A stretch of DNA of 33,891 nucleotides from positions 1 to 33,891 of the forward strand of contig CAJOPY010000178.1 in the NCBI GenBank assembly GCA_905236505.1. The letters are read 5' to 3'. The position numbers and the translations under genes were made by a program. This DNA comes from Candidatus Gastranaerophilales bacterium. Its GTDB lineage: Bacteria > Cyanobacteriota > Vampirovibrionia > Gastranaerophilales > Gastranaerophilaceae. The notes beneath the pieces are model-generated. The model was not told where the DNA came from, searched no databases, and saw only the letters and a program-made list of their open reading frames with translations. This document shows, piece after piece, positions 12,958-33,891 of the stretch (position 1 is its first letter; every line of letters starts with the position of its first letter).

Positions 12958-13264
12958 AATAAACTCTCCTTATATTCTTGTAATACTCTTTTTTAAATAA
13001 GTTATGAATTCAGAAATTTTCTTTTGTTTCCTCTCTTATTTATATCTTATGTATATATAAAGTATTTAAATGTTAAAAAATTGCCTTTTTTTATTGATAA
13101 ATTTTACAAAACTTAACATAAAATAGTTTCGTTAAACTTTTTAATTAGTATTTAAAGCTTCATGACACTCATAAAAAATTTATTTAATGAGTAAAAATTA
13201 GTGCGCAAAAAAAATTTTTACGTGTTTTAATATGCATGAGAATATAAAATATGAGGTCAATAAT

Positions 13265-15316
13265 ATGTTAAACATTACGCAAGTAAATCCTTTCCGCATC
13301 ACAAAATTTCCCCAATTTAAAAGCAACAATAAAAACGATCTATATATAACAGTTCCAAATTTTGGGCTTAAATATAACAAAAATTTAAATAAAGACACTC
13401 TTAGTTTTAAAGGAACACCGGCGGTAGATACAAAAGTTGTTCGTGAGCTTGTTGAGCAAGCATCTAAACGTTCCGATTTCAGATTTAATTTTAGTAATGC
13501 GGGTATTGAAGAAATTATATCCAAAGTAACCCCTAAAAATATTCCGTTTTTGGAAGATTTGCTATATCTCAATGACAAAAAACTTCCGGCCAAAGGTATA
13601 AGCATTCTTCTTGACTATATTAACGAGAAAGACACCAATGTTTCAGAATTTAAAGAAAAACTAAGCACGTTCAAAGATCTTAAAAACATTGTTTCCGGAA
13701 GAGGTTTTTCTAAAAGCATTTTACCTGACTATATCAATAAAATTTCATCGCAAGGCATCATTGATATATTAAAAAGCAGTATTTTATTGGAACATCCTAA
13801 AAATGAAGATTATAACTCTCTTCAATTTGCATACAATTATGCTGTAAAATATTTCAACGATCAAGTTTCAAAATCTAAAAATACCGGTGATGATTTTATT
13901 GCAAATACAATCATGAAAGACGGAACTTTTTCCAGCATTCTTTCTTTAGCGCAAGTTTATGATAAAAGTGCCCTTAATGAACTCTTTTATAACAGAGGTA
14001 AATATATAAAAACGATTTACATGCCGCGTTTTAGAATCCTCAATGAAAACGATTTGGAAAACTTAAGAAAAGTTCAAATTCAGGCTGTAACCGACAAAGA
14101 AAATAAGGGCGGAGATTATGCAACATATGAAATATCTCTGGATGACAAAATATGGACCCTAAACTTTTTATCAGTCAACAGAAATATCATTAATTCCGGA
14201 GAAAAGGGGCTTAATTTTGATAATTATAAACGTCCGGTAAACATTTACAATCCTGAAGCAAGTTTTATTATTAAGTTCCAAGACATGAAAGTAGATTTAA
14301 TGGACGAAGTTTTAAGGCACTTAGGAGTTGATAGTGAACTTGTTGACAAATATACAGCCAATTGGAAAGAAGCTTTTAAACAAGACCAAACTTTGTCAAA
14401 ACGAAGGAAAGATTTTTGGGATATTAATTATGCACACTTGCTAAATGCTCCTGAAGGAAGCTTATTGAGAAAAATAATCCTTGCAGACACATATGGAAAT
14501 TTAGATAAGATGATATTTAAGGAAGGACCTATTGCTGAATTAAATAAAAAAAATGAAGAAGCGTTCATTAAAAACGGACTTGATTATGAAAAATGGCTAC
14601 ACCCGAGCATAAAACCAATTACGAAAAAATTTACGGATAATACCGGAAGAAAAATTAAAACATTTACAGTAAGAAATTGGGACAGAAGTGCTAAAGAATC
14701 ACTTTTTGACGGGAATTATACAACTTGCTGTACAGGAATTGATAAAGATCAAGGAGAATCTTTTCCGCACTATTTAACAAATACTTGTACAACTACTCTT
14801 GAAGTAAGAAACGAAAAAAATAAAGTTATTGCAATGTCCAGAATTCTTATGGCAAAAGTTGACGGAAAGCTTTCAATGGTTGTTGAAAACATAGAAGTTA
14901 ATAACAAAATGGTTAAGCATTATTTATATAATGATGCAATGAAATATAAATTTAGAGAAATGATTTTTGATTATGCAAGAGAATTTGCAAAGGATATTAA
15001 TAAAAATGAAAAAGATTTACCTGTATATTTTTGCAGTAATTACTACAAAGTCAGAGATATAGAAAAAGGACTTGAAACCGGAAAAAGATATGAAGATGTT
15101 GAATTAATCGGAGAATTCCCTGACCAAATTTATGTAAATTCATACGGAGGAAGAATGGACAGGGTTAAATTGCAATTTGCAGATGACGGTGACGGTTTTG
15201 CATTACACTTAAGCGACATCAGTCAGAAAGCTAAACCGGTTATAGATAAAGACTCTCACATTGAATCTGACTCAAATTACAATTATGCTGATACAAGATA
15301 TTTTGAGCAACGTTAA
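13265..15316 (+). CDS. Large protein of unknown function with tag-like N-terminus
   Basis: Long ORF; ATG at 13265 preceded by GAGGT at SD spacing (track start 13232 less likely). N-terminus MLNITQVNPFRITKFPQFKSNNKN...FGLKYNKN...LSFKGTPAVD; C-terminal GNYTTCCTGID...TTTLEVRNEKNKVIAMSR...VVENIEVN region. Confidence 0.85.
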   Translation: MLNITQVNPFRITKFPQFKSNNKNDLYITVPNFGLKYNKNLNKDTLSFKGTPAVDTKVVRELVEQASKRSDFRFNFSNAGIEEIISKVTPKNIPFLEDLLYLNDKKLPAKGISILLDYINEKDTNVSEFKEKLSTFKDLKNIVSGRGFSKSILPDYINKISSQGIIDILKSSILLEHPKNEDYNSLQFAYNYAVKYFNDQVSKSKNTGDDFIANTIMKDGTFSSILSLAQVYDKSALNELFYNRGKYIKTIYMPRFRILNENDLENLRKVQIQAVTDKENKGGDYATYEISLDDKIWTLNFLSVNRNIINSGEKGLNFDNYKRPVNIYNPEASFIIKFQDMKVDLMDEVLRHLGVDSELVDKYTANWKEAFKQDQTLSKRRKDFWDINYAHLLNAPEGSLLRKIILADTYGNLDKMIFKEGPIAELNKKNEEAFIKNGLDYEKWLHPSIKPITKKFTDNTGRKIKTFTVRNWDRSAKESLFDGNYTTCCTGIDKDQGESFPHYLTNTCTTTLEVRNEKNKVIAMSRILMAKVDGKLSMVVENIEVNNKMVKHYLYNDAMKYKFREMIFDYAREFAKDINKNEKDLPVYFCSNYYKVRDIEKGLETGKRYEDVELIGEFPDQIYVNSYGGRMDRVKLQFADDGDGFALHLSDISQKAKPVIDKDSHIESDSNYNYADTRYFEQR

Positions 15317-15458: not shown

Positions 15459-16427
15459 ATGAAAATATCGTTTTATACAAACAATACATATTTTCAGAAT
15501 TACAATAAAAACAATCCTGCATTCGGAATTAAAATACCCGAATTAGAAACAGCAATTGATACTTTTATATCCAAGACAGATAATGCTCTCAAAGAAGAAC
15601 AAAATTTAATTCAATTAATCATAAAATTTGCAAAAAAAATATTTCAACCGGAAAATTTTATCGGCTCCGGCAGCAAAAATAAAGTTTATGATATGGGTAA
15701 ATATGTTTTTAGAATACCTAATGAAACATCAGAACAATCCCTAAACCTATCAGGCAGAATATCTAAAAATTCAAATCTTTTAAATATAGATTCATACTAT
15801 GGTGAAACATTATTACAAATCGGTGATATTAAAATCCTTAAAAACATAGGAAAACATACTTCCTGCGGAGTGCCGTATTCATTTATCAGGAACATGACAA
15901 AAGAAGAGGTTTATAATTATTATTTTGAAAAATATTTTCTTAAAGCATCGCAACTTCCGCAAAGCTCTTTTGATAAATTTGCTCAAGATGTAAAAAAAAT
16001 AAAATATCCAAATACCATTGACTTTCAAAATCCTAACAATACCGCAATTACCAAAGACAACAAAATTGTATTAACAGACGATTTGCTAAAATACAACAAA
16101 TATTGCGGAGAAAATTCTACGGCAAAGTTACTGAGAATATTCATGCTTGATGCCGGATTAAACATATATACACCTGTATTTGAAAAATATCTGAATGAAG
16201 CAAGGACTTTATTCAAAAAAATTATATTAGCCGGAGAAAAAGCAGGATTGACATTTTCCGGTGGTTATGAAGATAATTTACTAATAAGTGATGCTCTGTC
16301 AAAGTGTAAAGCAAAAGTAAAAAGTGAAGATTTTATTAAGAAAATAGCGGATATACGACAGAACAGAAACTCCGAATCAGACGGATTAAAAGAATTAGAA
16401 TGTTATATAGATAGCATTTTCAGATAG
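15459..16427 (+). CDS. Divergent kinase-like protein with tag-like N-terminus
   Basis: SD AGGAGG upstream; FIGSGSKNKVYDMGKYVFRI glycine-loop-like; TIDFQNPNNTAITKDNKIVLTDD resembles the catalytic-loop DxxxxN and downstream metal-binding Asp. Confidence 0.6.
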   Translation: MKISFYTNNTYFQNYNKNNPAFGIKIPELETAIDTFISKTDNALKEEQNLIQLIIKFAKKIFQPENFIGSGSKNKVYDMGKYVFRIPNETSEQSLNLSGRISKNSNLLNIDSYYGETLLQIGDIKILKNIGKHTSCGVPYSFIRNMTKEEVYNYYFEKYFLKASQLPQSSFDKFAQDVKKIKYPNTIDFQNPNNTAITKDNKIVLTDDLLKYNKYCGENSTAKLLRIFMLDAGLNIYTPVFEKYLNEARTLFKKIILAGEKAGLTFSGGYEDNLLISDALSKCKAKVKSEDFIKKIADIRQNRNSESDGLKELECYIDSIFR

Positions 16428-33550: not shown

Positions 33551-33579
33551 GTTCGCAGCATGTAGAACACGCTGCGAAC
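33551..33579. other. 9-bp GC-rich hairpin downstream of the glycosyltransferase gene
   Basis: GTTCGCAGC-ATGTAGAACAC-GCTGCGAAC; no T-run directly after on plus. Confidence 0.6.
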
Positions 33580-33730
33580 CGTTTGAGGAGAGAGGAGTAG
33601 TATAATACTTGTTTTATTCCCTTTTTCCCGTCTCCGTTATTAATATTCTTCCTTTTTTCCTATATTAATAAAGTATTTTTTACAAAAATAATTGCCATAA
33701 ATTAAACAATTATTACAAAATTGTTACAAG

Positions 33731-33891
33731 CGGATTTTTGGCAGAGTGCGAAGTAGTTTGCGGGAGCAAAATACGTAGGCACGTTTATCGCCAAAAACCA
33801 AGAGGCGGATTTTTGGCAGAGTGCGGAGTAATTTGCGGGAGCAAAATACGCAGGCACGTTTATCGCCAAAAACCAAGAGGCGGATTTTTGG
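33731..33891. repeat. 75-bp tandem palindromic repeat, two complete copies plus a partial third running off the window
   Basis: Units start at 33731, 33806 and 33881; complete copies differ at 3 positions. Each unit contains TTTTTGGC/GCCAAAAA, GTGC/GCAC and TTTGC-GGGA-GCAAA nested arms. Confidence 0.95.

Follow-up and report, generated by a model that had tools for sequence, protein, structure and literature searches.

A tandem hairpin repeat at a Gastranaerophilales contig end belongs to a dispersed family of mobile palindromes

The stretch of DNA analyzed here (the window) is a whole contig of 33,891 bp (G000:C178) from a Candidatus Gastranaerophilales bacterium, and it ends within a 75-nt tandem repeat. 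We found that the repeat unit belongs to a family of palindromes, which we call E, that E is mobile, and that its folded shape is kept by selection. We consider it probable that the window repeat represents two complete copies and one partial copy of a non-coding mobile palindrome that is moved in trans as a folded single strand. As the repeat unit is mobile and found at many dispersed sites, its tandem arrangement is a minor feature.

The repeat array at the end of the window

The initial annotation had reported a 75-nt period, and TRF bore this out with a repeat of period 75, 2.2 copies and 96% matches at 33730-33891, in which the contig end falls within copy 3. The two complete copies differ at 33751/33826, 33756/33831 and 33776/33851, exactly the three sites that had been named, and at no others. 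The array and its parts are as follows.

33730..33804, + strand: E element copy 1 (GCGG...CAAGA plus one linker base), from TRF and copy comparison; covariance model 87.5 and 89.1 bits
33805..33879, + strand: E element copy 2 (unlike copy 1 at three sites), from TRF and copy comparison; covariance model 87.1 and 89.4 bits
33880..33891, + strand: first 12 nt of E element copy 3, cut by the contig end, from the sequence
33732..33742, + strand: outer helix 5' arm, GG-A(bulge)-TTTTTGGC, partner 33790-33799, from folding and family pair statistics
33743..33755, + strand: conserved middle, 5' side, AGA + GTGC + GAA + GTA (internal loop AGA/GTTTATC, stem GTGC, internal loop GRA/GYA), from alignment and pair statistics
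33757..33770, + strand: apical stem-loop TTTGC-GGGA-GCAAA, from folding and alignment
33772..33789, + strand: conserved middle, 3' side, TACGTAGGCACGTTTATC, from alignment and pair statistics
33790..33799, + strand: outer helix 3' arm GCCAAAAACC, then the conserved AAGA end, from folding and pair statistics
33706..33725, + strand: small hairpin adjoining the array, AACAAT...ATTGTT, from the sequence

Each unit had been described as one long imperfect hairpin, and the stems named were the ones that folding predicted. One copy folded as DNA with z = -5.0 and the two window copies folded as RNA with z = -4.3 and -3.3, and therefore the window hairpin is beyond chance. The small hairpin at 33706..33725 is possibly a chance feature, because short-class copies of E show no significant enrichment of upstream hairpins. 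We had considered that E enters hairpin loops generally and rejected this, as an upstream hairpin was significant only in the tRNA-linked long class described below (p = 1.4e-10) and not in the short class (p = 0.065).

On the other side of the small hairpin lies a glycosyltransferase gene, and a search of it against genome contigs returned unrelated glycosyltransferases only. Directly 3' of this gene is a near-perfect hairpin, GTTCGCAGCATGT/ACACGCTGCGAAC (33551-33579), which is perhaps its terminator. A segment of about 60 bp downstream of the gene (33582-33641) recurs in several genomes of the genus at roughly 79-87% identity. A search across the genus for the orthologous locus of the array gave nothing beyond chance matches in AT-rich sequence and a single short repeated motif.

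Abutting copies of E also occur elsewhere, including unrelated contigs, with a period of 75 nt in L211, 94 nt in L124, and 93 nt over three copies in G113:C4, so that the tandem period equals the element's own length plus one base. We therefore conclude that the window array is a real arrangement of the E family and no special feature of this locus. The array sits at the contig end of a draft genome, where tandem copies could be a false duplication made in assembly. We regard such an artefact as very improbable: the window copies differ at three sites, and other genomes carry E arrays in the same abutting register, some of them within long contigs. An array would arise when E lands beside the end of a resident copy (CAAGA-N|GCG) or is duplicated next to it.

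Spread of the E family and selection on its fold

To place the unit among related genomes, we searched with BLAST and with a covariance model, and recovered a dispersed family. BLAST with the window unit matched 25 of 97 relatives, mostly as single copies, and 29 aligned copies share a fixed skeleton: GCG[G/A]..stem..GC-AGAG[T/A]GCGRAG..apical stem of variable length..CGYAGRC[A/T]CGTTTAAYGC..stem..CAAGA. The whole element spans 59-98 nt, varying by its apical part; the window class has 75 nt and a long form has 88-98 nt. The covariance model recovered E from 56 of the 58 genomes of the genus and, over the whole order, from 163 of 192 genomes (36 of 45 genera); no match was obtained in the sampled genomes of other orders of the class and of the rest of the phylum. 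Copy number ranged from 0 to more than 30 per genome and reached 33 in one genome.

Most copies lie between genes, and a few are in frame inside genes. The genes neighboring E were unrelated, with no common family and no enriched partner gene among 100 neighboring proteins. In Rfam, no family reached its gathering score with E and only tRNA matched. We found no published description of E in the open papers searched, an absence that is not proof. The best reading is that E is a new family of mobile palindromic repeats of the REP/MITE/RPE kind, and its unusual features are the order-wide conservation of its internal loops and its relation to tRNA T loops.

One compensatory change, among three substitutions, had been offered as a hint of selection on a folded RNA or cruciform DNA. 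With 120 distinct copies the hint is now statistical. In an alignment of these copies fitted to the covariance model, with pair statistics that ignore relatedness, standard pairs made up 88.2% of cells compared with 68.4% after shuffling, and covariation was 0.482 compared with at most 0.109 when partners were slid. Substitutions in the further copies follow the pairing, with two-sided changes at 21 of 24 pairs (560 such cells, compared with 140 by shuffling). A MAFFT-only alignment of 29 copies gave the same picture (93.4% paired; 15 pairs; 84 cells compared with 24). We conclude that the folded shape of E is kept by selection. The A-T to G-C change at 33751-33776 that had been highlighted is real, but this pair sits in the GRA/GYA internal loop, is a standard pair in 70 of the 120 copies (58%), and pairs less regularly across the family than any other position of the inner helix. 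Covariation over the other pairs of E is much stronger evidence than this one change.

Among the pairs of E, G.T exceeded A.C by 71 to 13, and therefore the written strand of E is the folded one. The same asymmetry points to single-stranded DNA or RNA as the folded form rather than a symmetric cruciform; of the earlier proposal, selection on folding stands and the symmetric cruciform is disfavored. In the mechanism we favor, E would be folded and recognized as a single strand; it has an outer helix and two conserved internal loops, and its apical hairpin varies in length. Selection would act on a strand that serves as an intermediate in DNA transposition, not on a functional RNA.

Insertion sites and the tRNA-linked class

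To look for empty sites, we joined the flanks of filled copies and searched them against other loci. For L182 (against L127 and L184), L185 and L181 (both against L184) and L136 (against L137), the search gave paralogous sequence without interruption, whose junction coincides exactly with the ends of E. The inserted length was E plus 0-2 nt; no long target-site duplication was seen at these sites, where it came to 0-2 nt at most. For the window copy, whose flank is without a clear orthologue, no empty site was found in relatives. The base directly before E was A in 125 of 162 copies.

Within a Mu-type transposase gene (L175), a 60-bp copy of E lies antisense and in frame, and five homologues of about 90% identity (L311-L315) lack exactly those 60 bp. 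Another copy is in frame in a gene of a phage-like viral contig (L291), for which no empty relative was found, and a second viral contig (L293) carries E beside a tRNA-Val 3' end. Taken together, we conclude that E is mobile. We propose that an enzyme supplied in trans would insert E precisely, mostly 3' of an A, with a target duplication of 0 to 1-2 nt.

Two of these loci have features of their own. The transposase gene (L175:185-2224, + strand) and its homologues (L311-L321) form a multi-copy Mu-type family, for which a single genome of the order gave as many as 14 matches. L293 contains two tRNA-Val-like 3' ends (1480-1730, - strand), one with E in its T loop, and a prophage and an E unit appear to share one tRNA site there. 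Named phages and plasmids gave no match when searched, and a wider viral pattern was rejected after its three matches all proved to be chance.

Long copies of E are associated with tRNA genes. An intact tRNA lies within 500 bp upstream on the same strand in 63 of 113 distinct long copies and on the opposite strand in none; for the short class, 2 of 55 copies are near a tRNA. The linked copies mostly lie about 70-110 bp downstream of the tRNA gene and involve 23 anticodon types. In the typical case, a second, partial tRNA is present and E interrupts its T loop (GTTCGA|E|CAATC). The right flank of E is the 3' part of the same tRNA, with an alignment score of 15.4 compared with 5.3 for other tRNA types (own type higher in 58 of 63), and to the left of E the T arm of this tRNA is repeated in inverted orientation (score again higher for the own type in 57 of 63). 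Some arrays consist of units of about 180-213 bp repeated two or three times. In the reading that we favor, this longer class occupies T loops in duplicated tRNA 3' ends that lie downstream of intact tRNA genes. A hammerhead ribozyme at the tRNA-linked three-way junction was considered and rejected, as its core motifs were absent by eye.

Other, longer hairpin families end as E does (GCGGATT...AATCCAAGA) and likewise occupy the T-loop position or form tandem junctions. These shared features suggest that one mobilizer may serve several hairpin families. Examples are the following.

L124:7422-7540: longer hairpin with E termini
L252:5848-5717, - strand: longer hairpin with E termini
L251:8853-8738, - strand: longer hairpin with E termini

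Three tRNA-His loci carry arrays of alternating E units and single-gene cassettes, with a further tRNA-His 3' end and a terminator at each boundary.

L251:7600-10630, - strand: tRNA-His cassette array
L252:3400-6260, - strand: tRNA-His cassette array
L255:2900-4430, - strand: tRNA-His cassette array

Open reading frames of the L251 and L252 cassettes and two window regions (13232-15316 and 15459-16427) have a short N-terminal NxxFxG/S-like motif common to many proteins (e.g. NVSFEG, NINFRS, TLSFKG), which is possibly a sorting signal.

The alternation with cassettes could mean that E is a recombination site, attC-like in role, of a tRNA-anchored cassette system, with the T loop as anchor and a site-specific recombinase adding units or cassettes. 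E resembles integron attC in its folded single strand, its asymmetric unpaired bases and its variable apical part, and the match of its right flank to the same tRNA would fit such anchoring. We nevertheless find this unlikely. The gene cassettes at tRNA-His close with another sequence that lacks E, for example GCAATAATTTTAAATAAGGGTTGTAACCAGCTCCCACTACTCGCCCCAT, E stands alone at many sites without a tRNA, as the short class shows, its ends (GCG...CAAGA in the alignment) have no R box (RYYYAAC/GTTRRRY), and the protein searches, which covered Y1_Tnp and the transposase, linked no recombinase or integron integrase to it.

We also weighed whether the host keeps E as a functional non-coding RNA or as an RNA-processing element, such as one that acts on tRNA transcripts. 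Its position downstream of many tRNA species, its strong covariation and strand asymmetry, and its conserved unpaired bases, including a UUUAA that resembles a T-loop motif, are all compatible with this; a functional RNA would also show internal-loop bases that are constant over the whole order, which is a counterpoint to the mobile reading. However, in most genus genomes the search matched tRNA-His alone with no adjacent E unit, copies vary from none to more than 30 per genome, and E is inserted inside coding genes and phage. This patchy presence and these insertions therefore argue against a host RNA function, and a terminator separates the tRNA from E in most arrays that we read. We thus doubt the RNA reading and continue to favor a mobile palindrome.

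Relation to known mobile elements

Like REP and REPIN sequences associated with RAYT, E is a short imperfect palindrome with many intergenic copies, tandem clusters and no long target duplication. A possible though less expected reading is accordingly that E is a REP-like element mobilized by a RAYT-type (Y1, HUH) transposase, its array being BIME-like. Y1 genes are present in 31 of 56 genus genomes, and they are commoner in genomes with short-class E (12 of 14, compared with 19 of 42; Fisher p = 0.012, uncorrected for relatedness and completeness). In contrast, E numbers followed Y1 numbers poorly overall (rho = 0.24, p = 0.08), E lay within about 2 kb of a Y1 transposase at 1 of 20 loci, and the E-rich genome G005 (30 copies) had no Y1 match. 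Thus Y1/RAYT is the obvious candidate enzyme, with a weak co-occurrence signal and unsupportive adjacency, and we found no mobilizing enzyme for E. E also differs from REP/REPIN in that it is one hairpin of 59-98 nt, has conserved internal loops of its own and no GTAG-headed REP unit at the 5' foot, and occurs in T loops and inside genes. The Y1_Tnp proteins of the genus genomes have about 175-225 aa, a RAYT-like size.

Rickettsia palindromic elements, to which E is likened by description and not by sequence, likewise occur between genes and, in frame, inside protein genes, and the exact 60-bp insertion in L175 shows this trait of keeping frame. They differ in host group, and E is found in phage and tRNA-end duplicates as well. 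E resembles MITEs in being small, non-coding, dispersed and presumably moved in trans; unlike them, it has a target duplication of at most 1-2 nt, and a non-exhaustive search found no parental transposon with matching ends. Like tRNA-anchored islands and tycheposons, E units are integrated downstream of an intact tRNA and bordered by partial copies of a tRNA 3' end, but they have about 190 bp and encode nothing, and E interrupts the T loop of the partial copy.

It is quite improbable, in our view, that a tRNA-anchored cassette system of the order uses E as its recognition hairpin, with the universal tRNA T loop as landing site and folded E or related same-ended hairpins as exchange sites. If true, this would give integron-like arrays downstream of many different tRNA genes. 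As a mobile palindrome, E is a good case for studying how hairpin elements choose their targets, given that its internal loops are conserved, its empty sites are clean, some insertions keep the reading frame, and the tRNA T loop is used precisely. Further, many copies of E lie near contig ends, and they may help to explain the break points of draft genomes in this group.
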